Origin: Xanthostigma xanthostigma
Lineage: Eukaryota > Arthropoda > Insecta > Raphidioptera > Raphidiidae
Assembly: GCA_963575645.1 (NCBI GenBank)
Contig: OY754464.1
Span: 82,558,948-82,622,947 of the forward strand
DNA length: 64,000 nt
Reading direction: 5' to 3'
Each line of letters begins with the position of its first letter. Positions within the stretch are counted from its first letter, which is position 1. The notes beneath the pieces are model-generated. The model did not search any database. It was not told the DNA's origin and was given only the letters and a program-made list of their open reading frames with translations. A program made the position numbers and the translations under genes. Positions 20,862 to 56,742 of the stretch are shown here, in pieces.

Positions 20862-21480
20862 TCTATACTAATATATAAAACTGAAGAGTTTGTTTGTTTG
20901 TTTGAACGCGCTAATCTCAGGAGCTACTGGTTCAAATTGAAAAAAAAATTTTTTTGTTGGATAGCCCATTTATCGAGGAAGGTTATAGGCTATATAAAAT
21001 CAGGCTACGACCATTAGGAGCGGAGCATTAATGAAAAATGTTGCAAAATGTATCTCAAAAATAAACTTCTATTCAGGTGAAATGCACTAACTAAATATAC
21101 TCATATTAGCGTTGTCAGAATACAACGCCGGCTAGCTCAGTCGGTAGAGCACACGACTGTCAATATCAGGGTCTTGAGTTCGAGCCCTACGTTGGGCGAA
21201 TACATTTTTATTTTTTTTTTTTTATTTTCTACATTGCTTTCTTCTAAGGCTTACATTTAAATTTATTTTAATTTTATTTAATTAATTAAAAAAAAATTAT
21301 TAGTTAAAAAAAATATAAATGCTGCTTTTGATCGACAAAAGCTTTTGAACGGTAACTCCGATCATCATGAAATTTGGACACAACATTCATCTCGGTAAAC
21401 TAAGATGAATGTGTGTACTCATGTTCCTCCCTTCCACATTCGTTCTTTTACACCCAGATGAAACCGGACAGGACCGCTAG
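20862..21480 (+). mobile_element. Helitron with tRNA-like cassette (family 1)
   Basis: Starts TCTATACTAATATATAAAAC after A at 20861 and ends GGACAGGACCGCTAG before T at 21481, the exact A|T insertion of Helitrons, with no target duplication. It carries a 73-nt tRNA-like insert (21126-21198). Relative to copies without it (17516, 32873, 44013), a cassette of about 300 bp sits between ATGTATCTCAAAA and ACTTTTGAACGGTAACTCC. No replicase is encoded. Confidence 0.88.
21126..21198 (+). tRNA. tRNA-Lys-derived pseudo-tRNA inside a Helitron
   Basis: Contains A box TAGCTCAGTCGG and B box GTTCGAGCCC and ends GTTGGGCG, as tRNA-Lys(CTT) does. The anticodon arm is altered to ACGACTGTCAATATC, so the stem is mispaired and the anticodon would be GTC. 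T-runs follow downstream. Likely not a functional tRNA. Confidence 0.7.
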
Positions 21481-22316
21481 TAGGATCATGTATCTCTCCA
21501 AGCTAAAGTATACAGTTGTATAAATTCACTAAAGACCTGGTTCTATAAAAACAGTATAAATGTCAATATTTCCAAAACTGAAATTATAACATTTGGAAAA
21601 TATTTTTACTTTCCTCAAACAGTAAAATTGCTAAGCACTGATCTGGATCTGAAGAATATAATAAAATTTCTGGGAATTACAATAGATAAGGATTTGAATT
21701 GGAAACCCCAGATAGACTCCATTATTCCTAAATTAAACAAAGCCACATATCTAATTTATATGTTAAAAAATTATGTTGGCACAGATATCTTAAAGTCGGT
21801 TTATACTGCCCATTTCCAGTCAATTTTACAGTTTGGTTTGCTGTTCTGGGGGAACTCCTCCCATACCAAAAAAATTTTTATTATTCAAAAGCGGTGTATC
21901 CGTATTATGGCGGGCGTACCTCCCCGTACTAGCTGTCGCAACATTTTTAAACATTTAAATCTACTTACAGTCTACGATTTATATATATTAGAATGTATGA
22001 AATTCTTTCGATCTCATCCGCATTTATTTGCGAATCATATAATTGACCACAAGTATGAGACAAGACACAGAAATGATTTCAAGACTGAAAACACGACTCT
22101 TGCTGTAGCGTACAGGGGTGTACGCAACGCTATAATACGGATACACAATACTATCCCCCAAAATGTAAAATCTATTCGGAATGCAGGAACTTTTAAAAAA
22201 GAATTAAAAACATTTTTAATAGCCCAGACAAATTATGATCTGAAAAAATATATATAGAAATTTGTACCAATTTTTGACTTGTTTCACGGCTCTGTAGTCA
22301 TAATATGAAATAAAAC

Positions 22317-22318
<2 letters not shown>

Positions 22319-22360
<42 letters not shown>
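22319..22360 (+). repeat. (TAT)n microsatellite, retrotransposon 3' tail
   Basis: Fourteen TAT units directly after the GAAATAAAACG end of the retrotransposon remnant, as is typical for the 3' tail of CR1/Jockey-type elements. Confidence 0.85.
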
Positions 22361-22363
<3 letters not shown>

Positions 22364-23070
22364 GAGCTATTTATTGGTTGCATTCGTTGAAAAACTACCG
22401 CTGTGGAGGATCCGGTTTGGCTTTTCTTCATTTATCTTCTAAAAGTAAAAAATGTTGGTGACTGATAGTCTTGAAATATTAACAGTGAGAGAGAAAGCAA
22501 TAAAATTCCTTCTCACAACCGACGGAAAACTCATTCAATTTTGAATTTTTAGCGCCTTCCAAATTTTTGTCATCTTTCAAATTTAAATCGGTTTTAAATT
22601 GTTAGTTGCAAAATGTTGCCGCTCCAGGAATTGTGGGAAGTCCAAGCCTAAATCCTGCTCTGTGAACAAAGCTGTAGAAGACCAGTAAAACAAACTACGA
22701 TTTGAAGATAAAAATCAACAATTAAAAGCGAATAAACGAAGATTAATTGTTTCATCTGAGTGAGTTTGGTCTCGCAGAATAGTACGTTACTTGAAAACAC
22801 AGATGGCATTGTAGTTGTGTATTATAGTTAAAATGAATAGCTGTTATGGAAACATAACGTCAATTCAGAATGATTAATGTATTTTTCGTAAAAATATGTT
22901 TTCGCATTCATTAAATTAGCGCTGAACGTTCGCTTTCCAGATTTATTAACTTTATCTCTATTTATTTTAATATATTTAAACCATTAATCAACGCCTAGAA
23001 AGCTATACACGCGGTTTATATCGACCAAAAGTTACAAACTATCCTCTGTACGAATTAAATCAAGTCTTAA

Positions 23071-23767
23071 GGAGGTTGAGCCGTTTTACGAAGATAATGA
23101 CAAAAATCTGAAATAAAGTTTTTTTAATAGATTTTTTTATGACAAAATTTTCTGTAAAAAATCCAAAATAATTAGGAGACTTATAAAGTTAAAAATTAAA
23201 AAAAACTTTTACATGTAGTCTTATGGAAAATATGTCAACCTAGCATGCAAACTGTTCATTTTAATTTTTTGCAAATAAGCAAATAATGTCAACAGTTCCG
23301 AAAACTATCTATGTAAAGCATCAATGTCTCTTACGCATATTTTAATATTTTTTCCAATTTAATTAGGAGACTTTTAATCAATAAAAAAAATTATTAAACC
23401 TTAGCACTTTTCGATTATGGACTTTTATTATTGACAGATTTAACAAATTTTAACTGAATTTTCAACTTTTTAATGATTTAATTTTAATTTTTATTACTTC
23501 TAATTTCTTTTTTCAATTATTTACTGCAAAAAAATGTAAAATACAGATGTTTACATAAATGTATTTTTTTTAACCTAACTTTGTACAAAAAATACAAAAG
23601 CTAGTTCATTAAGTATAAAGTACTGAAATAATTAATTAATATTAAAAAAAAATATTTATTTATGCCTTTATGACAATAATTTATTGGTATCATCGACTTA
23701 TAAACTATAAAAGTTCCCATTTAGAATTCGACTTACTTTTGATTGGGACTGTAACGGATCAACCTCC
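23071..23767. mobile_element. TTAA-flanked non-autonomous element A
   Basis: A 697-bp element with ends GGAGGTTGAGCCGTT and AACGGATCAACCTCC, flanked by TTAA on both sides (23067-23070 and 23768-23771). TTAA duplication is typical of piggyBac-type transposition. A second copy is at 42694-43304. It is inserted at the terminal TTAA of the Harbinger-like MITE that follows. Confidence 0.8.
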
Positions 23768-24057
23768 TTAAGACCGCTGCACACTAGGCTAGAAACGCTG
23801 CTAGGAGTTCTGTTAGCCGGTAGGCTGGGTACGAAGCTAGAAATGACGTCACTGCGAGCTGGCCTGCTAGCTCAAAAGATAGGTTTTAAAATTGGAACAA
23901 GGGCTATTTTTCCTGCGAGATTTGCTGCTAGGTATGAGCAAGAACCAATCAGGAAGCGGTATCGTGTCACGTGGGCACTTGAACAAACACCCACAAATCA
24001 ACATGGTGTCGCACTCTGTTCAGAGTCAGACAACAGACACGTTTTGCTCTGTGTTTA
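23768..24057. mobile_element. Harbinger-like MITE (TTAAGRCCGCTG family), partial
   Basis: Begins TTAAGACCGCTGCACACTAG. Related copies are at 53533-53935 and, in part, 55390-55690. All share AACCAATCAGGAAGC and an open frame starting MTSLRAGLLA that is read in opposite orientations in two copies. Superfamily inferred from the TTAA/GGCCGC terminus only. Confidence 0.5.
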
Positions 24058-24597
24058 CCTCACAATTTCTCCACATAAATTATATATCATTTTACAGATA
24101 ATTGCTTGCTCTACTGACATCGACAACTAAAAAATTTATTATTGCTTTTGTTTTTGTAAATTAATTAAAATACAGCAACGCTGAACAACGTCTGCCATCT
24201 GACGGCTTCAATTTTGAAACAACGTCAACACTTCGATCGGTCATCTGACCTTCATATTGTAATACAACAGACACAATACTGCATACTGTCATCTGACGGC
24301 TTTAATTTTGAAACAGCGATCAACGCTGAACAACGTCACAGCAATGCTGCATGATGCCATCTGACGGCTTAGCTCAACGCTTTTGCTACTTGCGCCTCTA
24401 TATGACAATTTTAGTAAAATATTTCTTCGATCTGTCATCTGAGCTTCATATTGTAATACAACAAAAAGAAGAACGTTATAAGCAGTGTGCAAAATTAGAA
24501 ACGAATTGAATACCTGCAATCATATTTAAAAAATAATTTTGTAAAGTGATAATTATTGTACTTATTTAGTGCGAATAATTCGCACAGGTCGCTCTAG
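24058..24597 (+). mobile_element. Helitron family B copy, 5'-truncated
   Basis: Ends GTGCGAATAATTCGCAC, GGTCGCT and CTAG before T (24598). The 5' part is lost where it meets the MITE at 23768-24057. Same family as 19141-19737. Confidence 0.75.
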
Positions 24598-24922
24598 TAT
24601 TAATTATAATAAGAATCGAACTACAATTTTTCAGTTAAACCAGACACATGAAAGTATTATATCCAACCAACGACATCTGAAGTGTGTCTGAACTCTGAAG
24701 AGTATGAGTTTAAACACACGAAGCTATTTTATGTATCAAAGCCATGTTTATTAATTTTTTTTATCATAGAGCTATAAATATAGGTGTCAAGGTACGAGGA
24801 AAGTGTTTATACGAGTATGAATCAAAATTGTTCGAGAAAATACACAAAAAAAATCTCTCTGAAGTCAAAAATAAACTATTTATTCTATTCTATATCTATA
24901 TTATACTAATGATATTAGGCTT

Positions 24923-25056
24923 GTTCCAAGCAGCCAGCAAACGGTTTCGAAACCCGCATGCGCAGTAGCTAAAACGTGTTCTAAAATCGCCATTAACATC
25001 TTCGTTTTACCTACTGCGCATGCGGGTTTCGAAACCGTTTGCTGGCTGCTTGGAAC
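24923..25056. mobile_element. 134-bp MITE with 46-bp perfect arms
   Basis: Arms begin GTTCCAAGCAGCCAGCAAAC and include GCATGCGCAGTAG; the spacer is about 42 bp. The right arm is directly next to the start of the Helitron at 25057. Confidence 0.8.
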
Positions 25057-25786
25057 GAACTTATATAAAACTGAAGAGTTTGTTTGTTTGTTTAATTGAA
25101 CGCGCTAATCTCAGGAACTACTGGTTCAAATTGAAAACAATTTTTTTTGTTGGATAGCCCATTTATCGAGGAAGGCTATAGGTTATAATATCACGCTACG
25201 ACCAATAGGAGCGGATCATCAATGAAAAATGTTGCAAAATGTATCTCAAAAATAGCTTGAAATGCCGTAACTACATATATCAATATTAGGTCGTACATTC
25301 ACAAGCCCGGCTGGGTCAGTCGGTAGAGCATGCGACTGTTAATATCAGGGTTGCGGGTTCGAGCCCCACGTTGGACGAATATATTTTTAATTTTTTTTAT
25401 TTTTTACATTGCTTTCTTGTAAGGCTTACATTTAAATTTATTTTAATTTTATTTACGACTAATTAAAATTGAATAAATCTAATTAATAGCTCATTTGAAA
25501 ACTGTTATAACTATAGGTACCTATATAAAAATAATTATGTTTTAAATTAAATATTTAATATATATTTTATTAATTACAGTAATTATTGATTTAAAAGAAA
25601 TGTATTACTTAAAAAAAGTATAAATACTGCTTATTATTGACAAAAACTTTTGAACGGTAACTCCGATCATCATGAAATTTAGACACAACATTCATCTCGG
25701 TCAACTAAGATGAATGTGCGTACTCATGTTCCTCTCTTCCCCATTCGTTCTTTTACACCCGGGTGAAACCGGGCGGGATCGCCCAA
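25057..25786 (+). mobile_element. Helitron with tRNA-like cassette (family 1)
   Basis: Starts within AACTTATATAAAACTGAAGA (5' end damaged) and ends GGGTGAAACCGGGCGGGATCGC, with the CTAG lost. It includes the tRNA-like insert at 25305-25377. Confidence 0.78.
25305..25377 (+). tRNA. tRNA-Lys-derived pseudo-tRNA inside a Helitron
   Basis: Sequence starts GCCCGGCTGGGTCAGTCGG and ends CCCCACGTTGGACG; the B box GGTTCGAGCCC is intact. The anticodon arm GCGACTGTTAATATC matches the other three Helitron copies rather than tRNA-Lys. Confidence 0.72.
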
Positions 25787-26098
25787 TCCAACACCAGGTA
25801 ATACAATCCACTATTATACTTAATTGGTAAGTCTTAAACAAAACCAATGAATTTATTTATAGTGCCATGGCGTACACTTTAATTCAAATGCCATCAATAA
25901 ATCAGAGTCGGTAAGTAACCACTGTTCGGCATTCTTTGAGGAGTAGGCTGCAATCATCAGCGTCCATTAAGGATTATCAGACCAATAACTCTTAGCTTAC
26001 AAACAAGTCAGGAATACTAAATAATGCAATAAGAAAACAAGCGCCAATGGCTAATAATCAATGATCATTGATGCGTGCAGGTTAAATATCGACAAATA
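25787..26098. other. Unassigned intronic sequence
   Basis: About 310 bp with no open frame, repeat or RNA gene that I recognise. Confidence 0.4.
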
Positions 26099-26709
26099 CA
26101 CCCATCCCCCGATTTACACGGTACTTGTTTTCGCTTTTACACGGTTTTCCAAATAAGTTTTTTTTTGTTTTTATCGCACTCTACTAAATGCTACTGTGAT
26201 TGAACACGTGCGCTGTGTACACATCTCACGGGGAATCCCGAGCTTATGTGCTGACTTGCTGCACACGCACACTGTGTCTGTATTTATTTAAAATTAAAGT
26301 TTTATCTACGGAAAATTGTATTTGAGTGAAAGTTTCACAGTTTCAGAAAGATTTCATTTTCCGTATTCGTAAATTACAAGTGAGTGCATAATTTAGATTA
26401 TTATAAATTAACGGCTGTGATTAAAGTAAAATTCAGAGGGAAAAAATGCGGGAAATTTTGGAGGGAAATGATGGCAATTTACCAAATAGGTTTAATTAAA
26501 ATAAAAAAATTAAAACATTTTAATTTGAATAAAAATTAATTATTAAACTTTTGTTAAAAATATTGAAAAAAATCACAACTGTTAAATAGCAAAATTATGC
26601 AATTTCTGCAAGCTTTTCGATTTACACGGTTTTGACTTGAAAATTTTTATTTTTCGATTTACACGTTTTTCTCTGGAACGTATCTACCGTGTAAATCGGG
26701 GGATAGGTG
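26099..26709. mobile_element. TA-flanked TIR element
   Basis: 611 bp with terminal repeats CACCCATCCCCCGATTTACA and its complement, one mismatch in 25, flanked by TA (26097-26098 and 26710-26711). The motif TTTTCGATTTACACG recurs near the right end. No coding sequence. Confidence 0.8.
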
Positions 26710-26920
26710 TACTAATAAATGTTGTATCGATTTGTTAAAGATGTTTTATGAATGCCAGCTAGAAGTGCCGTGCGTTCAATTTTTTACCTAAAGTGTGTAA
26801 AAATGTTCTCAATTAACAAGATAACGGAAAGTATGCCTATAGAGTAATTTTTATTATTATAGTACCTAGCCGCGATTGCAGCAACAGTAGTGAAGCCTTC
26901 GGCGCCACCGTATTAATTGA

Positions 26921-27175
26921 GCTGATACAAATCATCGAAAAAGAAATTTCCTTGAAGGGGAACGTAGATTTAATGCCGGAAATATCATAAAATTAGGCAA
27001 AAATTCAATTGAAACAGAACCATCAATTAAGGTGAATTTTAATGCTTTCTGTTTACTAACTTTCGATTTAAAGAGTAATCCGCAAGAAATAAAAGTGGTA
27101 AATAGAGATATTATATCAATGCAGTGTTGATGAACATTGCAAACATATTATTGAAACATTACTTTATTGCAACAG
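26921..27175 (+). pseudogene. SWIM zinc-finger exon remnant
   Basis: The open frame from 26921 (no ATG) reads HRKRNFLEGERRFNAGNIIK, then FNAFCLLTFDLKSNPQEIKV and VVNRDIISMQC, then stops at TGA 27128. Shifting the frame at 27129 continues DEHCKHIIETLLYCN to a splice-donor-like CAG|GTAAGT at 27176. The pattern E…NAGxIIxxG…CLLTxxLKxNPxxI…C-…-CKHxxxxLLYCNR is that of SWIM zinc-finger proteins in arthropods, often joined to a YqaJ-type nuclease. The second metal-binding Cys (CxC) is lost with the frameshift. It is probably a decayed exon of a mobile or multicopy gene. Confidence 0.6.
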
Positions 27176-27420
27176 GTAAGTTCCTAACCTAAAAATAGTC
27201 ATCTGTCAAAATGTATTTTTAACTTTACTTTTTTTTCTGTCAAAATTATAAATTAAGTTTTCAATACCTAAATACTTGGTAAAATAACTAACCATCTGCA
27301 TTGAAATGACGTGGTACTATTACAACCTTTTACTAACTTTTTATTTGTGTTAGCACGAGGTCAAAACTTCGCAGGTGCCATAATAAGTCATTTATTAATT
27401 CGTTTTTTTTATTATTATTA

Positions 27421-27537
27421 TAAAAAAATCATGATTAACAGTATTCATTGACAATACGATTCATATACTTGTTTCTCACATGTTAGTTAGCAAGTTTTGC
27501 CGCCAGATAGAGTAGTCCACATCGCGGATCCCCATAG
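27421..27537. repeat. Inverted-repeat partner of 31300-31414
   Basis: About 115 bp, including GATTCATATACTTGTTTCTC, recurs inverted at 31300-31414 with few changes. The pair bounds about 3.9 kb containing two fold-back elements, a MITE and a pogo-like MITE, and could be the ends of one long decayed element. Confidence 0.6.
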
Positions 27538-27621
27538 GTACTCTCTATGTATAGCATTTCTGGAATTATAAAGAACCTTTAAAAAAAAGGTTTCACGTTC
27601 ATACATACAAAGAACTTTATA

Positions 27622-28079
27622 CAGGTGAGTTTTAAATTGATGCTTTTTTTTTACAGCGTGTAAAAATCAAATAGACGAGCAAATATTTCAAATAGTTTTT
27701 TTATCAAAACTCAAAAATAAGAGAGAAACAGCCTTTCGAAGTTTAAATAAATTTTATTAAATTTTCTTTAATTTTGAGGTCGGTCCTGGGGTTATATTAT
27801 GTCACTATGGAAATAAGTTGTTATTATCAAGTATGTGTATTGTTCTGTTTTTGAGAGAATTGTGTGTGCCTCAATTATTTTTGATAATAACAACATATTT
27901 CCATTGTGACATAATATAACCCCAGGACCGACCTCAAAATTAAAGAAAATTTATTTAAACTTCGAAAGGCTGTTTCTCTCTTATTTTTGAGTTTTGATAA
28001 AAAAAACTATTTGGAATATTTGCTCGTCTATTTGATTTTTACACGCTGTAAAAAAAAGCATCAACTTAAAACTCACCTG
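27622..28079. mobile_element. Fold-back element, CAGGTGAGTTTTAA family
   Basis: A 458-bp palindrome with ends CAGGTGAGTTTTAAATTGAT and its complement, TA at 27620-27621 and 28080-28081. It is very similar along its length to 5554-6033 and retains the same arms. Confidence 0.82.
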
Positions 28080-28081
28080 TA

Positions 28082-29176
28082 TATTAGTAAAGATATATTT
28101 ATTAAAAAAATCAAACTAACAAAATAAAAACCAATTTCGATATAAAAGACGGTATCTAATAGTTATTTCCGTTCACAAAAGTTCATTTCTTATCGAGAAA
28201 TCGAGTGTATTTTAGTCATGCCGTACGTATATTGATATTTTTTTTACGTAAAATACGATATTGACAAGATAGCGCGGTGCGTCCAACATTGAATATTTTT
28301 CTTGCATAAATGTAGGTATTCGTTTTTGCCTCGACAATACATGGTAATGTATTCTATCTACACTTAAAAATAGAATAGAAAATTAAAATAAGCGCACACA
28401 AGAAAATACCAGCTGAGAGTGCTTTTAAATTTTATGCTATAGTGTCAGTGGCGGATTCATACTTGACAGACTCGGTTCGATTCTAAGTGAACTTTTTATT
28501 AAAGAAATGAAATATGCTTTTGGAAAGTTTGCTTGGTTTAAGAAATCATGAGTGAAATTTGAAAAATCCGAGCCCTAAAAAAAGTAGCGACATCTGATAG
28601 AATTTGCTAAAAGCTAGTAGTTCAGAAGCAAACAAATAAAAAAACTGTCTTGTAACATGTAGCCGGTTGCCGGTGCTGGTCTAATATGAGCTTCTGCGTT
28701 AAATTAGTATCTATAGGTACGTACACGAACAGTTTTTTTTTTTTGTTTTTTTAAGCTACAAAGTAACAAAACGTGCATGCATACGTCTCTGAACTGTCAG
28801 GTTGGCGTCGAGCGTGTGTAGAAAAAAAAGGAAAAAAGAAAAAACGCACTTTATCCTGATCCTTTTTCCGTAATGAACGCAAACAATAGGGAAATGTGTT
28901 ATGATATGGCGTTCCGTAAATGGCACAGCTCTGAGCTATAACTGTTATAAAAAAAGGTACTCTTTTAATTCTTGGCCGTAGTATATAATATCTACCTATT
29001 TAATATTATTATAATGTTCTTATTAAAAATATTACATTGAATAGCATTTCCCGACGTTTTTGAAGTGAAAACTTCTTTAGCGGCGTTGTACACTTTTTTT
29101 GTAATGGGTAAAAATGTTAAATTCGCGTCAGGCGTCAGGGTCACGTGACCCTGACGAGTTGTTGAGACGGTCTACC
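28082..29176. other. Intronic stretch with repeat fragments
   Basis: No gene. Contains a Helitron family-2 fragment (28585-28650) and a segment (29060-29145) repeated at 60990-61080 (…GAAAACTTCTTTAGCGGCG…). Confidence 0.45.
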
Positions 29177-29208
29177 GTACTTGCTTCGGCAGTACATATA
29201 CTAAAATT
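29177..29208 (+). ncRNA. U6 snRNA 5'-domain fragment
   Basis: The 32-nt segment reads GTACTTGCTTCGGCAGTACA then TATACTAAAATT. It matches the 5' stem-loop and following single strand of U6 snRNA. The stem GTACTTGC/GCAGTAC stays paired, with a compensatory change relative to the fly GTTCTTGC/GCAGAAC. The match stops before the GGAACGAT of U6. It is a truncated pseudogene or a chimeric retrotransposition junction, not a functional gene. Confidence 0.7.
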
Positions 29209-29220
29209 CGCTAGATGTCA

Positions 29221-29468
29221 GTAGCAATATAAGTTACATGCAGTGCAAAAAATTATAAGCTATAAGCTTTAACAAAACCTTAAGAGATGTCGCCATGTAC
29301 TCAGGTTTTGTAAAACTACAAATTTAAAAAATTACATCCAGTGACTGGCTGCGTGTAATTTTATAAATGTGTAGTTTTACGAAACCTGGATGCATAGCGA
29401 CATCTCTTAATGTTTTGTCAAAGCTTATAGCTTAAAATTTTTGCACTGCATGTAACTTATATTGCTAC
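29221..29468. mobile_element. Palindromic MITE, 248 bp
   Basis: Arms begin GTAGCAATATAAGTTACATG; inner arms include GAGATGTCGC and AGGTTT…AAACTA, around a short centre near 29345. It directly follows the U6 fragment. Confidence 0.72.
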
Positions 29469-29757
29469 TAGCGAAATTTAGTTTAAGTACATCTAGATTT
29501 TCACTTCTGCAGGCACTCCCGGAGTGCAACCCGTCTTTTTTTTATTAATTCAAATTTTGTTCGCACTTTTACGCCATGGTTAATATCATTAACACCAAAA
29601 CTGTACCAAAAACATAAATGTGAAAAAATGACATATAGTTAAAGCGGGATCTTTGTCGTAAAATTAGGGTTAAGAGCATTATTATTTACGGAAAATAATA
29701 AAGAAACATTAAAATCGAAAGGTATACAAGTTTCCATATTAAATTCAAAAGTAACTA

Positions 29758-31411: not shown

Positions 31412-32008
31412 TTTTGTTTGTCTGTTTGGTTGAACGCGCTAAACTCAGGAACTACTGGTTCAAATTGAAATTTTTTTTTTTTTGGATAGCCCATTTATCG
31501 AGGAAGGCTATAGGCTATATAATATCACGCTACGACCAATAGGAGCGGAGCTTTAATGAAAAATGTTGCAAAATGTATCTCAAAAATAAGCTTCTATTCA
31601 TGTGAAATGCACTAACTAGATATACTCATATAAGCGTTGTGAGAACACAACCTTAGGTGGATCAATCGGTAGAGCATGCGACTGTCAATATCAGGGTCGT
31701 GGGTTCGAGCCCCACGTTGGGCGAATATATTTTTATTTTTTTGTTTTTTATTTTCTACATTGCTTTCTTCTAAGGCTGACAATTAAATTTATTTTAATTT
31801 TATTTAATCAATTAAAAAAAATTATTAGTTAAAAAAAGTTTAAATACTGCCTTTTGTCGACAAAAACTTTTGAACGGTAACTCCGATCATCATGCAATTT
31901 GGACACAACATTCATCTCGGTAAACTAAGGTGAATGTGTGTACTCATGTTCCTCCCTTCCCCGCATTCGTTCTTTTAACACCCGGGTGAAACCGGACGGG
32001 ACCGCTAG
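31412..32008 (+). mobile_element. Helitron with tRNA-like cassette (family 1), 5'-damaged
   Basis: Begins inside the 5' part (GTTTGTCTGTTTGGTTGAAC) and ends CCGGACGGGACCGCTAG before T at 32009. Carries the tRNA-like insert at 31651-31723. The 393-bp repeat at 32010 starts immediately after it. Confidence 0.8.
31651..31723 (+). tRNA. tRNA-Lys-derived pseudo-tRNA inside a Helitron
   Basis: The 5' half is degraded (CCTTAGGTGGATCAATCGGT). The anticodon arm GCGACTGTCAATATC, B box GGTTCGAGCCC and 3' end CCCCACGTTGGGCG are intact. Confidence 0.65.
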
Positions 32009-32872: not shown

Positions 32873-33230
32873 CAGCGGTCCCGCCCGGTTTCATCCGGGT
32901 TCAGAAGAACGAATGGGGGGGGGGGATAAATGAGTACGCACGTTCAATTTAGTTCACCGAGATGAATGTTGTGTCCAAATTTCATGATGATCGGAGTTAC
33001 CGTTCAGAAGTTTTTGTCGGACGGACAAATTTTGAGTTATATTTTGCAACATTTTTCATTGATGCTCCGCTCCTATTGGTCGTAGCGTGATATTTTATAG
33101 TCTATAGCCTTCCTCGATAAATGTACTATCCAACAAAAAAATTTTTTTCAATTCGAGCCAGTAGTTCCTGAGATTAGCGCGTTCAAACAAACAAACAAAC
33201 AAACTCTTCAGCTTTGTATATTAGTATAGA
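32873..33230 (-). mobile_element. Helitron without cassette (family 1)
   Basis: On the minus strand it starts TCTATACTAATATACAAAGC and ends CGGGCGGGACCGCTG, with the CTAG damaged. It lacks the tRNA cassette. Confidence 0.8.
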
Positions 33231-36874: not shown

Positions 36875-36945
36875 GCATCGGTGGTTCAGTGGTAGAATGC
36901 TCGCCTGCCACGCGGGCGGCCCGGGTTCGATTCCCGGCCGATGCA
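36875..36945 (+). tRNA. tRNA-Gly(GCC)
   Basis: A 71-nt complete cloverleaf: acceptor GCATCGG/CCGATGC with discriminator A, A box TGGTTCAGTGG, anticodon loop CTGCCAC (anticodon GCC), and T arm CCGGGTTCGATTCCCGG. No mismatch is visible in any stem. It is a functional-looking nuclear tRNA gene, transcribed by RNA polymerase III from its internal A and B boxes, and delivers glycine at GGC/GGT codons. It lies opposite to the transporter transcript, inside its first intron. Confidence 0.97.
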
Positions 36946-37321: not shown

Positions 37322-37574
37322 AATAGCCTATTTATCGAGAAAGGCTATAAGCTATATAATATCACGCTACGACCAATAGGAGCGGAGCATCAATAAATGT
37401 TGAAAATATAACTAAAAATTTGTCCGTCTGACAAAAACTTTTGAACGGTAACTCCGATCATCATGAAATTTGAACACAACATTCATCTTGGTAAAGTAAG
37501 ATGAACGCGCGTACTCATGTCCCTCCAGCCTATTCGTTTTTTTGCACCCGGATGAAACCGGGCGGGACCGCTAG
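37322..37574 (+). mobile_element. Helitron 3' part (family 1)
   Basis: 5'-truncated copy beginning AATAGCCTATTTATCGAG and ending GGGCGGGACCGCTAG before T. No tRNA cassette. Confidence 0.8.
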
Positions 37575-39379: not shown

Positions 39380-40606
39380 GCAGATATCATCAACCGATTG
39401 AGATGAAAATGTGTATACACGTTTAGTTTGAATGACAATGCATGGTTAGCTGTATGACGTCACTCTAAATCCAATATGGCGGACTTCTAAAGATGGCGGA
39501 AATGCCTTCGGTAATTTTGAAGCAGATATCATCAACCGATTGAGATGAAAATTTGTATACAGGTTTAGTTTGAATGACAATGCATTGTTAGCTGTGTGAC
39601 GTCACTCTAAATCAAATATGGCGAACTTCTAAAGATGGCGGACTAATTTTATTATGCTTTCCTACAATATGGGTATCAAATGAAAGGGCTTGCTGAGAAT
39701 AACTCGAAAAATATAGTGACGTCACTCTAAATCCAATATGGCGGACTTCTAAAGATGGCGGACTAATTTTATTATGCTTTCCTACAATATGGGTATCAAA
39801 TGAAAGGGCTTGCTGAGAATAACTCGAAAAATATAGTGACGTCACTCTAAATCCAATATGGCGGACTTCTAAAGATGGCGGAATAATTTTATTATGCTTT
39901 CCTACAATATGGGTATCAAATGAAAGGGCTTGCTGAGAATAGCCCGAAAAATAAACTGACGTCACTCTAAATCCAATATGGCGGACTTTTAAAGATGGCG
40001 GACTAATTTTATTATGCTTTCCTACAATATGGGTATCAAATGAAAGGGCTTGCTGAGAATAACTCGAAAAATAAAGTGACGTTACACTAAATCCAATATG
40101 GCGGACTTCTAAAGATGGCGGACTAATTTTATTATGCTTTCTTACAATATGGGTATCAAATGAAAGGGCTTGCTAGGAATAACTCGAAAAATATAGTGAC
40201 GTCACTCTAATTCCAATATGGCGGACTTCTAAAGATGGCGGACTAATTTTATTATGCTTTCCTATAATATGGGTATCAAATGAAAGGGCTTGCTGAGAAT
40301 AACTCGAAAAATAAAGTGACGGCACTCTAAATCCAATATGGCGGAATTCTAAAGATGGCGGACTAATTTTATTATGCTTTCCTACAATATGGGTATCAAA
40401 TGAAAGGGCTTTCTGAGAATAACTCGAAAAATAAAGTGACGTCACTCTTAATCCAATATGGCGGACTTCTAAAGATGGCGGACTAATTTTATTATACTTT
40501 CCTACAATATGGGTATCAAATGAAAGGGCTTGCTGAGAATAACTCGAAAAATAAAGTGACTTTAGTTTAAATCCAATATGGCGGACTTCTAAAGATGGCG
40601 GACTAA
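39380..40606. repeat. 120-bp satellite array with CRE and ATGGCGG motifs
   Basis: Eight full 120-bp units and one part unit run from 39597 to 40606. They are preceded by two diverged units with a 143-bp period (39380, 39523). The unit is GTGACGTCACTCTAAATCCA…ATATGGCGGACTT…AAAGATGGCGGAC… and ends AACTCGAAAAATA. The palindrome TGACGTCA is intact at 39455, 39597, 39717, 39837, 39957, 40197 and 40437 and altered at 40077, 40317 and 40557. Open frames here exist only because 120 is a multiple of three. Confidence 0.95.
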
Positions 40607-40640
40607 GTTTTTGACGTCAAGAGGGGTTTAAAAAAAAAAG

Positions 40641-44012: not shown

Positions 44013-44354
44013 TCTGTACTAATATATAAATCTGAAGAGTTTGTTTGTTTGTTTGGTTGAACGCGCTAATCTCAGGAACTACTGGTTCAAATTGAAAAAA
44101 AATTTTTTAGCCCATTTATTGAGGAAGGCTATAGGCTATATAATATCACGCTACGACCAATTGGAGCGGAGCATCAATGAAAAATGTTGCAAAATGTAAC
44201 TTAAAATTTGTCCATCCGACAAAAACTTTTCAACGGTAACTCCGATCATCATGAAATTTGGACACAACATTCATCTCGGTAAACTAAGATGAATGTGCGT
44301 ACTCATGTCAATCCCTTCCCCATTCGTTCTTTTGCATCCGGGCGGGACCGCTAT
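44013..44354 (+). mobile_element. Helitron without cassette (family 1)
   Basis: Starts TCTGTACTAATATATAAATC and ends GGGCGGGACCGCTAT, with the last base of CTAG changed and the hairpin partly deleted. Confidence 0.8.
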
Positions 44355-48002: not shown

Positions 48003-48041
48003 ATAATATACGGCCATTCAGATCATACTATATACTTTAAA

Positions 48042-48169
48042 TAGTATATTACACTACATTGGCCGAAAATTTGATATTCTTGCATTGCGCGCCATGATAC
48101 CCAATGAAGCCAAGGGCATCATGACGCGCAGTGCAAGATATCAAACTTTCGGCCAGTGTGGCGTATACT
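48042..48169. mobile_element. Short palindromic MITE
   Basis: Arms AGTATATTACACTACATTGG and AGTGTGGCGTATACT with TTGCATTGCGCGCCATGAT in the stem. A related single end is at 10385-10425. Confidence 0.65.
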
Positions 48170-48476
48170 ATTTTTTTTTCATACTTCTGTCGTAAGTACA
48201 CTTTTTAAATACATCAATTAATTAATTACATAAAAACTAGATAAAATAAAAGACAAGTCCACTTATTTGCCCAGTCTGGCACATCCCAAGTGGAGGAAAG
48301 TCAGTCTGGCTGAAAATTTGTGGATGCAAAAATTTGAACGATTTTTGAAATCCATAACCCTTACGCGCTGTTAATAAAAAAAAACAGTTGTGTGGTTTTA
48401 AGAAACTACGACGCAAGTGAAACTTTTATTGGATTGTAGGCACTTATCCATCACGATTAATTATAAACAACAATAT

Positions 48477-49020
48477 TCACATGAATACACGAATAAAAAC
48501 ATGTAAACACTGTACAGCACTTGCCCGCATGACAGACTGACTATGTCTTATACATACTACACGGTCAGCTGATGCTAACCATGGGCGCCGCCATATTGGC
48601 CTTGGCTGCTCTACCGAGCGCCTACTCCGAGCGCCTTTCACTTTACCCCTACTCCGCGGCCGCCAGTAATGCGACATGCAACAGACGGCCAGAAAAATTC
48701 GGGGCGATAGAATAAAAGTTTCATTTAAAAAAAAAATCAAATTAAAAGTCACGCTGTATAGCTCAGATGTTTCCACAATCGTGAAATAGAGTTTGGTGGT
48801 CGGCCGGGAGTACGTAACATTATTTATTCTTGGAGCCTGCCAGTTGCCACAGACTGTGAATGATACAGTCGTGGCAGTTGGGACAGACGCGGCCCAAACT
48901 CGAAAGTCACGTGTGAAAACATACACACACATACATTCGCGCGGGCACACATTATTCATGGCCGATGTGACAGCTTTAAACAGAAACCGAGAAGAGAGCT
49001 TCTCGTTTCAGGGATGAAAT
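48477..49020. other. GC-richer unassigned segment upstream of the transporter
   Basis: A locally GC-rich region (…CCGAGCGCCTACTCCGAGC…, TACTCCGCGGCCGCC). It holds the longest complete open frame outside repeats apart from the reverse transcriptase (160 residues, minus strand, 48477-48959), but that frame shows no domain, signal or biased composition suggesting a protein. It could be promoter or 5' untranslated sequence of the transporter gene; no evidence decides this. Confidence 0.3.
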
Positions 49021-49405
49021 ATTATATGCAGTGGCGTGAAAACGACAAAAAATTATGGTGCTGTGTGCACAATAACTTTTTAACCTTCCTGCGTTCAGTG
49101 ATCGATGTGTAAATGTTCGCAGTTTGGGCTTGGTAGCATTTATTCCTCGAGAGCGGGCGTCGAGTTTGCTCTCGCTTAAAGTTGAGACTTATCTATTAGG
49201 ATGTGTTGACATTAATGATGTGCCGGATCGTAAATGATGTATATCCGCGGATACGGATCTGAATACGGATATTTGGTTTCAAGATCCGCGGATACGGATA
49301 CGGATCTTAACTTTCTTAGAGTACGCGGCGGTAAATATTGCACATCGACCTTTGGAAAGAAACTATCTGTTATGGGAAAAAGTTATTGACTTCTTTAAGA
49401 GTTAA

Positions 49406-50503
49406 TGGTCGCCATACACGCTAGGGTTTGCATGATGGTTTTAACCTTGCATGCATAACCAACAGGTATAACCAAGTTAGATATAACACATACACGTTAG
49501 GGTTTGCATGAGCAGTTTTGCCATTTACTCTCAGTTAAAGACAGTTGGAACTACGTGACGGTGTGTGTAGGACATTTATCTAAACTACTGTGCACTTTAT
49601 ATCAACAATGGACGACGACGATATGATAGCTGTACTTGGCTTAACACTTGTTCTACAGAACAGAATAAAATATTTTTAACAAAAAAATTGAACCGACTTC
49701 AAAAAAGGCACTAAAAAGTAAAAAAAAATTGCGTGTTGAAATGTTTTGGAGTCGGTGTAGTTCTTGGAATAGATTTCATTTTGGCTGACACCGACTCCAA
49801 AACATTTCAATACGCAATTTTTTTTTACTTTTTAGTGCCTTTTTTGAAGTCGGTTCAATTTTCTTGTTAAAAATATTTTATTTTTCTCTTTTTAGTGTTA
49901 ATCTAACACTAAAAATCGGTGAACATACATAAAAAACATTATGCATGCCTTTGAAATTTGAGAGTTTCCCTCGATTTCTCCGGGATCCACCATCAGATCC
50001 TGACTTGGTTCCGATGGGACCACCTCGGAAGTGCACTCTTTCGAATAAAAAAAAAAATTGAAAATCGGTCCATAATTGATGGAGAAATCGGTGAACATAC
50101 ATAAAAAAAAATATACAGACGAACACAGAACCTCCTCCTTAAAAAGAAAAAGAGATCGCACTGAATGGTGTAAACAATGGTTATTGAAAAAAAAAGCAGT
50201 TGTCTCACGTAAATTTGATAAATGAATTGAGAATTACACCAAAAGATTATAAAAATGATTTACGAATGGATGAAAAACTTTATTTGAAACTGTGCATGCA
50301 AGCATGCTGGGTGCCACACACGCTCGGTTATGCATGCGCGCAAATATAACCGAGCGGCAAAAAATATCAATTTTGATATTTGCTAGGTTGCATGTACATG
50401 CACCAATAACTGTACAGTTTTATCACATACACGTTAGGGTTTGCCTGTTGGTTATGCATGCAAGGCTAAAACCATCATGCAAACCCTAACGTGTATGGCG
50501 GCC
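49406..50503. mobile_element. Harbinger-like element nested in the hAT
   Basis: Ends (T)GGTCGCCATACACG and CGTGTATGGCGGCC with TTAA at 49402-49405 and 50504-50507; the inverted repeat continues through GGGTTTGCATGATGGTTTTA. ATG at 49608 starts a short frame MDDDDMIAVLGLTLVLQNR that resembles the acidic N-terminus of Harbinger transposases and is cut by an inserted palindrome at 49663-49880. Confidence 0.6.
49663..49880. repeat. Palindromic MITE, about 218 bp
   Basis: Arms start TTAACAAAAAAATTGAACCG (with GACTTCAAAAAAGGCACTAA further in) and close on each other around 49775. This is the innermost of four nesting levels. Confidence 0.75.
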
Positions 50504-51491
50504 TTAACTCTCATAACAGATTGTCTCTTTCCAAAGATCGATGTGCAATATCTCATTAACATTATAAAGATAGTTTTTTATTAGTACCTTTGAGTTACGT
50601 ACTATTGGTATGGTACTCACTACGATTTTTTGCAATATAAAGGTGCCAAATACGATTATAAAAAATAAAAAATAATCTGAATGGAATTTAACAGTTTTTC
50701 ATTATTACCTAATCACCTATATATATAAAATTTCATCTATGAATTGAAAATTAATAAGGTAAAAGATCCGCCATAAAACTAACGGATACGGTTCTTCTTC
50801 TCCCTCGGATATCCGCGGATAATGATACGGATATCCGGCACATCACTAGTTCACATGATTCTTTATTGGGAGCTGGCTATCCGTGCGCTCCGCTCACTAA
50901 AAAGAGTCGCCCAGAGGGAGTCGTTCAAAGGAGCGACACAAGAGTGCAGACTGCATGCATGATCGGGAGTAACGTAGCATTGCACAGCACAATACACACA
51001 TTCAGCTCTGAGCTCACTTTAATATGATTCTGATCTTATATTATTCGCATTTCGGATAAACTATAAAGTATAATAAAAGCTTAACAAGAACTAGTAAAAA
51101 TATCATTTCATTTTATTATTAAAGAAACAATAAACTGGATATATATGAATCGGTACCGTGCCTAAGTAAAGCTAACTGCTGGTGGATAAATAAATAAAAA
51201 ATTCATTCCAAGTAGATATAAGTGTCAGAATGTGTTGTTTCTTTCTAATTAGTAATCATAATTTTATCATGAACGATAAGAGTTTGAGTATTAAATTTCT
51301 TTATTAAAAGATTAAAAAATTCGCATCGGTGGTCAAATCCATTATTTTTACCAATTATTTACTGCATGGGCGACATTATCATTAATTATTATACCTATCA
51401 TATTATATTAATGAAGTGTAACATCTTAACGCATTAAAAATTTAACTGTGTAACCATGAGAACAAAAAACTAATATATTTTCTTGCATTGA

Positions 51492-51530
51492 GGCCCTGAT
51501 GATGAAAATATATTTTTCGAAACGTTGGCC
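51492..51530 (+). ncRNA. Hammerhead-like motif, best-formed copy
   Basis: 39 nt: GGCC, CTGATGA, T, GAAAA-TATAT-TTTTC, GAAAC, GTT, GGCC. The outer GGCC/GGCC can form helix I, CTGATGA and GAAA match the catalytic boxes, and GTT is an allowed cleavage triplet. ACGT after GAA is self-complementary and could pair between two copies. One extra T lies between the CUGAUGA box and stem II. The flanking TGTTCCTCAACC…TTGGAACAAAACTT recurs near 45120-45170. Confidence 0.5.
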
Positions 51531-51705
51531 ACAAGCGATACACTGGTAAAGCTTATTTTCAATTGTTCCTCAACCAAAAAAAACCCCTTCAATACATATT
51601 TTGGAACAAAACTTCTACCAATATATTTTCTGTAAATATCAATAATAATAGTAATTTATTATAATCAATGCCGTAACGCATTTTTTGCGCTGGGCGCAAG
51701 CTTCT

Positions 51706-52216
51706 ACAGAATGATTTTTAAGTTGATTCTTCTTTTTTAACAGCGTGTACAAATCAAACAGACGAACAAATATTTTAAGTAACTTTTTTATCAAAACTCA
51801 AAAATATGAGAGAAACAGCCGTTCAAAGTTTAATTAAATTTTATTTAATTAGTTCAAAAGCCCGGTTAATACACGCGAATAAATGATAGCACGAATCGGA
51901 AATGCATCCCAAATAATTCGCGGAAGGCCCTTATCGCTACTACAAGCATGGCTACGAGGCACGCATATTTGTGTCCAAAAAAAACGGGGAACAATTTCTG
52001 TGAATACTTGATAATGACATAACATAATTCCATAGTGATATAACATAACTCCATAGTGACATAACATAACTCCATAGTGACATAACATAACTCCAGGACC
52101 TCAAAATTTAATAAAACTTTGAAATCCCGTTTCTCTTTCATTTTTGAGTTTTGATAAAAAAGTTACTTGAAATATTTGTTCGTCTATTTGATTTCTACAC
52201 GCTGTTAAAAAAAAAA
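51706..52216. mobile_element. Degenerate fold-back element
   Basis: Diverged relative of 5554-6033. Arms such as CAGCGTGTACAAATCAAACA are recognisable, and the middle repeats CATAACTCCATAGTGACATAA. Terminal CAG is kept on the left only. Confidence 0.6.
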
Positions 52217-52345
52217 GAATTTCTGCGCCTTGTGTCTGGGCACCGCCATATACGGCACCGATTGTAATTAATAAGGTCCGTGTCAACATGAAATTTCGTA
52301 CAAAATGACGGTTTTACACGCTTTATATTAACTTCACTTGTAAGT

Positions 52346-52418
52346 TTGTATGTATGTATGTATGTATGTATGCATGTATGTATGTATGTATGGATGTATG
52401 TATGTATGTGTGTTTGTA
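52346..52418 (+). repeat. (TATG)n microsatellite
   Basis: About 18 units with a few substitutions (GCATG, GGATG). Confidence 0.9.
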
Positions 52419-52482
52419 ACCTTCGTTTGGACTACAGCAAGTGGTTTATTACTGTAGTATAATATGCCGGCACTGTAACTAC

Positions 52483-52568
52483 AGTTGTTAGCCGTGCGGT
52501 CTAGGCACAGGTCTTCGCTGACGTCAACTCTCGGATCACGTGTCGTGGGTTCTAATCCCGTCCACGCC
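52483..52568 (+). tRNA. tRNA-derived sequence followed by poly(A)
   Basis: Has an A-box-like TTAGCCGTGCGGTC and a B-box-like GGTTCTAATCC, with spacing suited to a long-variable-arm (Leu/Ser-type) tRNA, and runs straight into a 14-bp A stretch. No clean cloverleaf is seen. More likely a SINE head or tRNA pseudogene than a gene. Confidence 0.45.
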
Positions 52569-52756
52569 AAAAAAAAAAAAAATTTTTTTTCGGCAAATTT
52601 TTGACAATAAATCGAACTAAAAAGTGGAAAATATAGTTTAAAAAAAACTAAAAAACACGCTTTATATCAAACTAAAAAGTGAAAAATAAATATAGTTTAA
52701 AAAAAACTAAAAAACACGCTTTATATCGAACTAAAAAGTAAAAAATATTTTTTTTA

Positions 52757-52906
52757 AAATAAGCTTTAACAAAAATGAATAAAAAATACTAGTATTATTG
52801 TGAAAAAAGCGTGGGGCACTTTGTTCCACATTTTCGTACATCGAGCGCCCCACGCTTTTTTCACAATAATACTAGTATATTTTATTCATTATTGTTTTAA
52901 GCTTAT
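52757..52906. repeat. 150-bp interrupted palindrome
   Basis: Arms AATAAGCTTTAACAA…ATACTAGTATTATTGTG and GAAAAAAGCGTGGGGC with exact inverse on the right; centre near 52840. Confidence 0.8.
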
Positions 52907-52910
52907 TTAA

Positions 52911-53108
52911 AAAAAAAAATTGGTTGTCTGTAAAGTCGGTTTACGGACGATAGTTTTACGTGATAGCGTATTCCGCTCGAATATCATATTAATTAATAAT
53001 ACATTACTGCGCTCTCGCTTGCACGCATAGGGTCAGGCGGAACGTTACACTTTTTCGTGCGTGCAGCTGGTGTTTCATCAATTTATAAGACGTTAACACG
53101 TCAAAAAA
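52911..53108. repeat. GTGATAACG-ended element, complete short copy
   Basis: 198 bp in the reverse orientation to 40641-40840, with which it shares both ends and the CGAATATCAT/CTGCGCTCTCGCTTG interior. Confidence 0.75.
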
Positions 53109-53532
53109 TTATTTTTTACTTTTTAGTTCGATATAAAGCGTGTTTTTTAGTTTTTTTTTAAACTATATTTATTTTTTTTTTAAAAGGTGAACTATTCCGA
53201 ATACTAAATACTGAGAGGTGTTTTAGAAAATTATGACACCCTCTGGCCATTTTCTTAAGTTCCGCCGCTGTTATTTTGTTGCAGACATAAGTATTATTTT
53301 AAAACCTCGTAAGCGACTTAACAGTTTTATTTATCTGGTTAAATATGATATATGTTTCTACACCAGTATACCACTGGATATGGTGGAATTATGGTACCGT
53401 GTGTGTGGTAACTAGTATGGAATTATGTAATATATTATAATGAAACATTGTTGTGTTTACAACTCTAAACACAGGATAATAAACAAATGTATTATCTGTT
53501 TATCTCAAATCCAAAACAACTTTTATTTGTTA

Positions 53533-53935
53533 AGGCCGCTGTACACTAGGCTTAAAACGCTGCGAGATTTGCCTACTAGTTTTCTAGCGCTGGTTTTCTT
53601 GATTGCTGTTGAGTGCTCGCTTCACACGAGACTGTTTTTCAAGCTTGATTTGTGGATAGATCTGGTGCGCGCGCAGTGACAGTTCGAATATAAACACAGA
53701 GCAAAACGTGTCTGTTGTCTGACTCTGAACAGAATGCGACACCATGTTGGTTTGTGTGTGTTTGTTCAAGTGCCCACATGACACGATAGTGCTTCCTGAT
53801 TAAAATAGCCGTTCTAATTTTTAAACCTATCTTGTGAGCTAGCAGGCCAGCCCGCAGTGACGTCATTTCCAGCTTCATACCCAGCCTACCGGATAGCAGA
53901 AATCCTAGCAGCGTTTCTAGCATCGTGCCAACCCT
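53533..53935. mobile_element. Harbinger-like MITE (GGCCGCTGTACACTAGG)
   Basis: Left end TTAAGGCCGCTGTACACTAG; near the right end CCTAGCAGCGTTTCTAGC, partly inverse to the left. Shares interior with 23768-24057 in opposite orientation. Confidence 0.55.
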
Positions 53936-54054
53936 AATTTTAGAAAAGTGGTAGATGAACTGCAAAAAATTGGTAGATTTGAAAAAGGAAAATCGGTAGA
54001 TATTCATCTACCTTAATATGTATTATTTTATGTATTAAACATAATTATATAACA

Positions 54055-54646
54055 CTAGTGTGACCTGTGCGAATTATTCGCACTAAATAAGTATAATAAT
54101 TATCACTATAAAATTATTTTTTAAATATGATTGCAGGTATTCAATTCGTTTCTAATTTTGTACACTGCAGCTTATAACGTTCTTCTTTTTGTTGCATTAC
54201 AATATGAAGCTCAGATGACAGATTGAAGAAATATTTTACTAAAATTGTCATATAGAGGCGCAAGTAGCAAAAGCGTTGAGCTAAGCCGTCAGATGGCATT
54301 GCTGTGACGTTGTTCAGCGTTGCTCGCTGTTTCAAAATTAAAGCCGTCAGATGGCAGTATGCAGTATTGTGTCTGTTGTATTACAATATGAAGGTCAGAT
54401 GACAGATCGAAGTGTTGACGTTGTTTCAAAATTAAAGCCGTTAGATGGCAGACGTTGTTCAGCGTTGCTGTATTTTAATTAATTTACAAAAACAAAAGCA
54501 ATAATAAATTTTTTAGTTGTCGATGTCAGTAGAGCAAGCAATTATCTGTAAAATGATATATAATTTATGTGGAGAAATTGTGAGGTTTTTTCTAAAAAGG
54601 GAGGCAAACATCTTTACCTAACCTTAGCGTATTAATATATATATGA
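54055..54646 (-). mobile_element. Helitron family B copy
   Basis: Minus strand: TCATATATATATTAATACGC at the start, hairpin GTGCGAATAATTCGCAC and CTAG at the end with T following. Nearly full-length relative of 19141-19737. Confidence 0.78.
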
Positions 54647-56057
54647 TTATTTTATATATTAAACATAAATAATTTATATGTATTACATATCTGTTAATTA
54701 TAATGTTTGTACATGTTTTTGTTAAACAGTTTTAAGTACCTACTCAGAGCTAGGCTCCCTGTTTTTGGTTAAGGTTAGTTCGCAATAGGCTAGTAATGTA
54801 GTCAAATAGTGTGCAATTTAGTTACTAAAATACTCGCTACTTGACTTGCTTAATCCGTAATCCGTTACTTATATGGTTTATGTAATTCAAACGTTGGTAA
54901 AATTTGATTTTTAATGGATTGTTTAGATAGATTTATAAATATGTTGGTAGACTAGGAGCGAAATAGGTAGATCTACCAAAAAGTTGGCTGCCCGCACATG
55001 ATTTTTTTTAAGAAAGTATAGTTGGAACAATGTCCCAAATTAATGGCACATGATTCTTCTGTTAGCCAAAATCAATGAAACATAGCCGTGCAACAATTTC
55101 TAATAGTTTTGTACATTGCGTGTTGTCTGGGGTACACCGTACACGGTATAGCATTACGATTGATTCAATTCTTATTGTGAATGTATTTTGCTAACTTCTT
55201 GTATTGAATAAGTAGATCGTGTTCCAGTGCATACAAGTGTTGCAACGTGCACCACAGAACCGCGTCCTGTTGCCACAGTCCTCTTGTTAAAGCGTCTAGG
55301 ACAGGGTTTCACAAACGTGCGTGCCGCAAGGCTCAACTTGCTCAAAACTGTAATTCCGAATTTCTTGTTGAGCGGGCTGGTTCCAGGTAACGTATTTCCG
55401 TTTGCTCTGAGCAAGAACCAATCAGGAAGCAGTATTTTGTCACGTGGGCGACTTGAAAAAACGCCCAAAAACACTATACCACTATGTTCTGTTCAGAGAC
55501 AATAAACATGCACTTTTATTACCGTTCTATCACTGCGCGCGCACCGAATCTACCTGTAGAGCAAGCTTGTAAAGACGTCTCGCGTGAAGCGAGCACAATA
55601 GCAATCAAGAAAACCAGCTTTAAAAAATTAGCAGTGAAATCTAGCAAGGAACCTAGCGGCAAGTCCCCAGCCTCTTGTGCAGCGCACTTACGGTATTCTC
55701 ACCCTGACAGCTTTCGTTCATATAGGCAACGATACGATATATAGAAGTGAAGCGAAACCGTAACTAAAATTGTGGACTTGATGCATTCAGTCACTTCTAT
55801 ATCCCTCTACGTGCGCAAGAAAGAGAAGACGTGAGCGGAGAATGTTTCATGATCTATGAGAGTATGGAGTTACGTGAGGGTGCCACTGAGAACTGACTTA
55901 TGTGCTCAAGTCAGACAATCGAAGTGCCAACGATTGGTTGTCAAGAATAATTTACATCGTATGCTACAAAAGTCACTTTTGGAATCTTAAAAACAATAGG
56001 GTCAGCCGGCCTATCAAAATTTGATAATTTTGAATAGTGCACATTGTCTATTATACT
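54647..56057. other. Upstream stretch, no gene
   Basis: Contains a partial Harbinger-like MITE copy at 55390-55690. The open frames at 55172-55505 lie partly in it and show no known domain. Confidence 0.45.
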
Positions 56058-56742
56058 TCTATACTAATATATAAAGCTGAAGAGTTTGTTTGTTTGTTTG
56101 TTTGAACGCGCTAATCTCAGGAACTACTGGTTCAAATTGAAAAACATTTTTTGTTGGATAGCCCATTTACCGAGGAAGGCCATAGGCTATATAATATCAC
56201 GCTACGACCAATAGGAGCGGAGCATCAATGAAAAATGTTGCAAAATGTAATTCAAAAATACCTTCTATTGTCGTAACTACATATTATATCAATATTAGGT
56301 CGTACATTCACAAGCCCGGCTAGGTTAATCGGTACAGTATGCGACTGTTAATATCAGGGTCGTGGGTTCGAGCCCCACGTTGGGCGAGTATATTTTTATT
56401 TTATTTTCCACATAGCTTTCTTCTAAGGATTACATTTAATTTTGTTTACGACTAATTAAAATTAAATATAAATCTAATTAATAGCTGATTTGAAAACTGT
56501 TACAATTATAGGTACCTATATAAAAATAATTTTCCTACAGTGTTTACAATTAAATATTTATTATATTAAAAAAAGTATAAATACTGCTTTTTAACGACAA
56601 AAGTTTTTGAACGGTAACTCCGATCATTATGAAGTTTAGACGCAACATTTATCTCGGTAAACTAAGATTAATGTGCGTACTCATGCCCCTTCCTTTCCCA
56701 TTCGTTCTTTTGCACCCGGGTGAAACCGGGCGGGACCGCTAG
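56058..56742 (+). mobile_element. Helitron with tRNA-like cassette (family 1), full length
   Basis: 685 bp from TCTATACTAATATATAAAGC to CGGGCGGGACCGCTAG, followed by T. The best-preserved cassette-bearing copy; tRNA-like insert at 56314-56386. Confidence 0.88.
56314..56386 (+). tRNA. tRNA-Lys-derived pseudo-tRNA inside a Helitron
   Basis: Starts GCCCGGCTAGGTTAATCGGT and ends CCCCACGTTGGGCG. A box partly changed, B box intact, anticodon arm GCGACTGTTAATATC as in the 25305 copy. Confidence 0.7.

Follow-up and report, generated by a model that had tools for sequence, protein, structure and literature searches.

The window analysed here, a 64-kb (64,000 nucleotides) AT-rich stretch of Xanthostigma xanthostigma DNA (contig OY754464.1), contains ten copies or fragments of a short Helitron-like repeat family, four of which carry a cassette with a tRNA-Lys-like sequence inside them. 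The cassette-plus copies all lie on the plus strand: copy B (20862..21480), which has both termini (TC preceded by A, and CTAG followed by T); copy C (25062..25785), in which both extreme ends are degenerate; copy D (31413..32008), whose 5' end has been replaced and whose 3' CTAG followed by T is present; and copy H (56058..56742), with both termini and a 5' neighbour that is T, not A. Four other members are cassette-minus, namely copies A (17518..17869, plus strand, 3' end degenerate), E (32873..33230, minus strand, 3' end degenerate), F (37323..37574, plus strand, 5'-truncated) and G (44013..44353, plus strand, 3' hairpin lost). The last two are uninformative about the cassette: fragment A' (17405..17515, plus strand), where the 5' part of the family is joined to the 3' end GGGACGGCTAG, and copy I (59786..59961, minus strand), which keeps both termini around an internal deletion.

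By the usual rule, an element belongs to a Helitron family such as Lep1, Hel-2 or Hel1 when its terminal sequence is close to the family consensus (80% over 30 bp). A 5' start fitting TCT(A/G)TAC was found in 5/10 of the copies (the TC being part of the searched pattern), with A preceding it in 4/5 and T in copy H. Six of the ten (A', B, D, F, H and I) end in a 3' sequence of the CTRR type (CTAG or CTAA), and T comes next in all six. Among six ends that were folded, a CCCGG/CCGGG hairpin stem was seen near the 3' end in H, F, E and C, a 4-bp stem in D, and none in B. Judging from their sequence, the ends of the family match the Helitron pattern known for insects (PMC4344730, PMC6544945). Searches elsewhere gave nothing: patterns for the cassette or the Helitron and for tRNA-Lys had 0 matches in viral contigs, genome-contig pattern scans had 0 matches, and copy H had 0 matches in phage and plasmid collections, but little insect DNA is expected in any of these and the results carry little weight. 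Two neighbours of the family can be mentioned. An inverted repeat with 61-nt arms, 93% complementary (24916-25063), adjoins the 5' end of copy C, and a 257-codon open frame (21484-22257, plus strand) lies directly at the 3' end of copy B; by eye it resembles the end of a LINE (long interspersed element) reverse transcriptase, and Pfam gave no match.

To characterize the tRNA-Lys-like sequences we used human tRNA-Lys(CTT) as query (sequence from PMC8216282), from which the tRNA-Lys of the host may differ. A blastn search of the window returned four significant matches (E 1.3e-20 to 2.5e-23; the next match had E 0.46), all of them plus-strand stretches of 73 nt with 84-89% identity to the human tRNA: 21126..21198 in copy B (11 mismatches), 25305..25377 in copy C (8), 31651..31723 in copy D (12) and 56314..56386 in copy H (8). 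With E 1.3e-20 or better in 4/4, chance resemblance was rejected. An earlier note, made from the letters of this DNA, had placed tRNA-Lys-like sequence at 21126, 25305, 31651 and 56314, and all four positions proved exact. It had also described one abnormal anticodon arm common to the four, and this was borne out, since the arm GACTGTYAATATC is exact in every stretch and three changes relative to human tRNA-Lys (A29C, C34G and C40A) are common to 4/4, although the tRNA-Lys of the host itself may account for some of them. Because of these changes the anticodon reads GTT in C and H or GTC in B and D, and in 4/4 the anticodon stem has lost its pairs 29-41 and 30-40; B lacks two further pairs, so that the stem retains 1/5 pairs in B and 3/5 in C and D.

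With the Rfam tRNA model, B scores 12.8 bits, C 24.3, D 21.8 (a partial match) and H 30.2, and the cutoff of 29 bits is passed by 1/4, H only. ARAGORN in its bacterial setting called 0/4 of the stretches and, in the same run, called a tRNA-Gly at 36875. A working tRNA-Lys gene was therefore rejected at these sites, with an anticodon that is not CTT or TTT, a stem of 1/5 or 3/5 pairs and 0/4 calls by ARAGORN. No CCA follows position 73 in any of the four, which rejects a retroposed mature tRNA, and a run of five T is found 7 nt downstream in 4/4. Taken together, the missing CCA and the common T run suggest that a tRNA gene locus was taken up as DNA, and the four stretches look like pseudogenes. 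Two other tRNA-related features lie near family members. The tRNA-Gly(GCC) just mentioned (36875-36945, plus strand, 66.7 bits) is ~380 nt ahead of copy F, and a tRNA-like stretch of 26.9 bits (60057-60128, minus strand; cutoff 29), which has no tRNA-Lys match and is possibly the head of a SINE (short interspersed element), lies 95 nt upstream of copy I.

The earlier note regarded the cassette as a mobile RNA polymerase III (Pol III) promoter with A and B boxes. Measured against the consensus motifs, the boxes are present in part: the B box fits fully in 3/4 stretches (C, D and H; one mismatch in B), while the A box fits fully in 1/4 (B; one mismatch in each of the others). Conservation among copies does not single them out. 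The tRNA part has 21/73 variable columns as compared with 50/315 in the backbone (one-sided P 0.01), and so behaves as a passenger, and the right flank of the cassette, with 19/91, is similar to the backbone (P 0.17). Within the boxes, 4/12 columns vary in the A box and 1/11 in the B box, a constancy that is within chance (P 0.11), and we saw no selection on them. A functional role for the tRNA part, now or in the past, in which its Pol III transcription aids the element through transcription, exposure of single-stranded DNA or chromatin, is very improbable: boxes with 0 or 1 mismatch each in 4/4 against the consensus and the five-T run at +7 in 4/4 would suit it, but the anticodon stem is broken in 4/4, variation is higher in the tRNA part than in the backbone and the constancy of the B box reaches only P 0.11. 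On these grounds the promoter claim is weak, and any Pol III activity of the cassette would have been at most transient. A bolder version, to which we give hardly any credence, would have an entire tRNA-Lys gene, terminator included, captured while transcribable, its Pol III activity helping a master element to outgrow the rest before decay set in among dead copies. If this were true, the benefit would come through opening DNA for the rolling-circle enzyme or through resisting silencing, and a dispersed, transposon-borne tRNA gene in a Helitron would be of a kind without a report among the literature matches listed.

Comparison of plus and minus copies reveals the extent of the cassette. All four tRNA-Lys matches of the window are inside Helitron copies, at a common position and in a common orientation, within inserts that span 21061..21333 in B (273 nt), 25252..25638 in C (387 nt), 31586..31858 in D (273 nt) and 56258..56595 in H (338 nt), all on the plus strand, C and H having a long right part. 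These lengths include ~10 bases that correspond to 11 nt of the minus copies. Within the cassette, 65, 53, 65 and 56 nt lie ahead of the tRNA-like part and 135, 261, 135 and 209 nt lie behind it in B, C, D and H, respectively. Thus the four carriers among ten family copies stand as first reported, but the unit they carry is an insert of 273-387 nt and not of 73. In 4/4 plus copies the insert starts with ATA after (C/T)TCAAAA and stops before GACAAAA, and in 4/4 minus copies the same word GACAAAA is preceded by the 11 nt TTTGTCCGTCC, or a single change from it (17714-17724 in A, 33029-33019 in E, 37419-37429 in F and 44207-44217 in G). The three minus copies originally listed, at 17516, 32873 and 44013, do have the 11 nt at the site, and so does a fourth, copy F (37323). 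The cassette site is itself an inverted repeat, TTTGTC...GACAAA.

Boundaries that differ between copies, each with its own target duplication, were what the earlier note expected of independent SINE insertions. We found the boundaries in agreement in 4/4 and no duplication above chance: direct repeats at the insert edges were at chance level in all four (P 0.25, 0.37, 0.46 and 0.43; 300 shuffles each), the longest words shared by the edges being AAAAATA, CAAAAA, CAAAAA and AAATAC, a level at which AT-rich DNA could hide a short duplication. Independent insertions of a SINE, or of a solo long terminal repeat (LTR), are disfavoured on both counts. Four separate insertions are unlikely in view of the agreeing boundaries, the common right flank and the three changes present in every plus copy, and a single acquisition at the DNA level, spread with the Helitron, would be the better fit. 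We consider it probable that a short non-autonomous Helitron picked up a tRNA-Lys locus once, long ago, and that the locus was copied along and decayed as a passenger. Common position, orientation and boundaries, shared changes, absence of a duplication above chance and location within Helitrons are observed; we infer that there was a gain rather than a loss, and one event rather than two.

Several observations weigh against this account. The first concern the identity of the element: the ends of 4/10 family copies (A, C, E and G) depart from CTRR, and the energy of the 3' terminal hairpin is no better than that of shuffles at 6/6 ends (z -0.16 to 1.06). Another concerns the kind of event. A 6-nt word, AATACA, flanks the tRNA part on both sides in copy B only (P 0.05), as might be left by a single insertion of a tRNA-Lys SINE or a Helenus-like solo LTR into the Helitron, followed by hitch-hiking. 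Sources of this sort are on record, since the LTRs of wasp Helenus elements hold a tRNA-Lys-CTT-like sequence (PMC10886601) and tRNA-derived SINEs have been described in a moth (PMC3272025). Yet the AATACA pair is missing in the other three copies, the junction between plus and minus states lacks a duplication above chance in 4/4, the tRNA part is not at the start of the insert but has 53-65 nt ahead of it, and no free-standing tRNA-Lys match occurs within the window. This origin is, in our judgment, decidedly improbable.

Also among the adverse observations is the existence of two cassette types, B/D and C/H, of which only C/H has the longer right part. By blastn the right flank of B matches those of D, C and H. 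Its left flank matches that of D, has a match of no more than 32 nt (E 7.6e-4) to that of C and has none to that of H at E 0.01, and the left flank of H matches C alone. Two left flanks of one type differ by ~9% and those of different types by 30-38%, as against 6-15% for the backbone of the same copies, so the divergence between types exceeds what simple co-descent would lead one to expect, although the figure depends partly on gap placement because C and H carry different small deletions there. Gap-free site patterns in the left part of the cassette are 11:0:0 in favour of the split of B and D from C and H. Within the window, matches to the left flank are confined to the four plus copies, and the AT-rich right flank has only short, weak ones.

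These differences might also follow if B/D and C/H had separately taken up related tRNA-Lys pseudogene loci, in two acquisitions at a single vulnerable site of the Helitron. Left flanks that are 30-38% apart between types and 9% within them, the failure of B to match H at E 0.01, and a long right part confined to C and H, which are not a pair on the backbone, are all in line with it. We nevertheless find it rather improbable, since the outer boundaries agree, the same three anticodon-arm changes are present and the right flank matches across types. The claim of one capture followed by spread with the Helitron, as originally put forward, is therefore upheld as to the shared boundaries and the three shared changes, and qualified by left flanks that barely match between types.

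In order to relate the cassette to the history of its carriers, we built a tree of the backbone with 8 rows, repeated without F, from an alignment trimmed at its 3' end and with no outgroup. The result is nearly unresolved, and neither shows nor rejects a clade of plus copies. On the adverse side, a branch that sets all plus copies apart is recovered in 22% of bootstraps (16% when F is omitted), with 2 changes on the best tree; the clade is not rejected by the approximately unbiased test (p-AU 0.45 with 8 rows, 0.10 without F). B and D are grouped on the backbone at 86/83, a modest value under the 95 mark. Also adverse is the marginal rejection of C and H as a pair (p-AU 0.046 with 8 rows, 0.084 when F is omitted), while their cassettes clearly pair. 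This discordance is a hint of exchange among copies, which could explain it, as could two acquisitions.

The same tree bears on direction. In a weak split, G is the one minus copy that falls on the side of the plus copies, with A, E and F on the other (57/82; 56/71 without F), and because of this placement we lean towards gain. The opposite direction would have the cassette as the older state, with the tRNA-containing middle original to the element and the minus copies derived from one internal deletion. The 11-nt alternative common to the four minus copies fits one deletion equally well, and the comparison has no outgroup; but with G beside the plus copies, weak as that split is, two deletions with the same breakpoints would be needed. 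The junction bases favour neither direction, as either needs a few bases lost or added. On balance we regard an ancestral cassette as unlikely, though not negligibly so.

The single acquisition that we prefer could have proceeded as follows. In an insect-like genome, a short non-autonomous Helitron would have acquired an internal block of host DNA, consisting of a tRNA-Lys gene or pseudogene with its 5' flank and a 3' flank bearing the T-run terminator. Uptake was likely through filler-DNA repair of a break near the inverted repeat TTTGTC...GACAAA, a structure at the cassette site that would suit a break. The enlarged Helitron may then have propagated the cassette by rolling-circle transposition, cassette Helitrons giving rise to two or more subfamilies (B/D, C/H), while the tRNA part presumably decayed as a neutral passenger.

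The remainder of the window holds other features. Probable sugar transporter exons (major facilitator) lie at 2464-2844 and 6079-6462 on the minus strand, where Pfam Sugar_tr matched 2/5 open frames tested. Similar long inverted repeats at 5708-5882 and 27774-27938, with a below-cutoff match to MIR400, are likely a short inverted-repeat transposon, and an element at 20242-20512 with ends GGGGTGGCAAACCT / AGGTTTGCCACCCC resembles, by eye, an inverted-repeat transposon of the hAT type. A tandem array at 39596-40611 (120-bp unit, 8.5 copies, 95% matches) is mostly covered by two adjoining minus-strand open stretches in one frame. A near-perfect hairpin with arms of ~41 nt (49718-49828) has a mir-3913 match below cutoff.

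Helitrons with captured DNA are a known kind, and a tRNA gene as cargo is unusual. No insect Helitron reported to contain a tRNA gene was recognised among the literature matches listed, in which coverage of subscription papers is incomplete. Three points deserve mention. The captured sequences of insect Helitrons were, in at least one large survey, sought among protein-coding fragments only, so that small RNA genes would be missed (PMC3789558); plus and minus states of the Helitron side by side make both the direction of change and the effect of the tRNA promoter testable; and pseudogenes carried by Helitrons, of which 1/4 here passes the Rfam cutoff, could inflate the number of tRNAs counted in such genomes.

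The closest known elements, compared by description only, are the insect Helitrons Lep1, Hel-2 and Hel1 (PMC4038834, PMC4344730, PMC6544945), which are like the family described here in their 5' TC, 3' end of CTRR type, A/T target, short length and acquired sequence. In Hel1 of Spodoptera frugiperda, elements that otherwise match contain additional captured regions, which have been ascribed to filler-DNA repair of breaks (PMC6544945). These elements differ from ours in their cargo, as the word tRNA occurs 0 times in the main text of each of the three papers. Silkworm Helitrons, with 3,724 captured gene fragments in one insect, also resemble the present case, but the word occurs 0 times in that survey too, which showed only protein-coding fragments because BLASTX was used (PMC3789558). 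Outside insects, the tRNA genes of the Arabidopsis tRNA-Cys cluster overlap annotated Helitrons (PMC10701932), and a non-coding RNA captured by a Helitron would be the first example according to that paper, whose own case is uncertain. The Arabidopsis genes differ in forming a tandem cluster, over which three programs for Helitron detection returned no reliable element, whereas the copies in the window are scattered and Helitron-type ends are present in several of them. Finally, Helenus (PMC10886601) is likewise an insect mobile element with a tRNA-Lys-like sequence, but it is an LTR retrotransposon, known by its LTRs and target duplications of 4-6 bp, whereas the inserts in the window have none above chance and lie, at one common position, within copies of a Helitron-like family.

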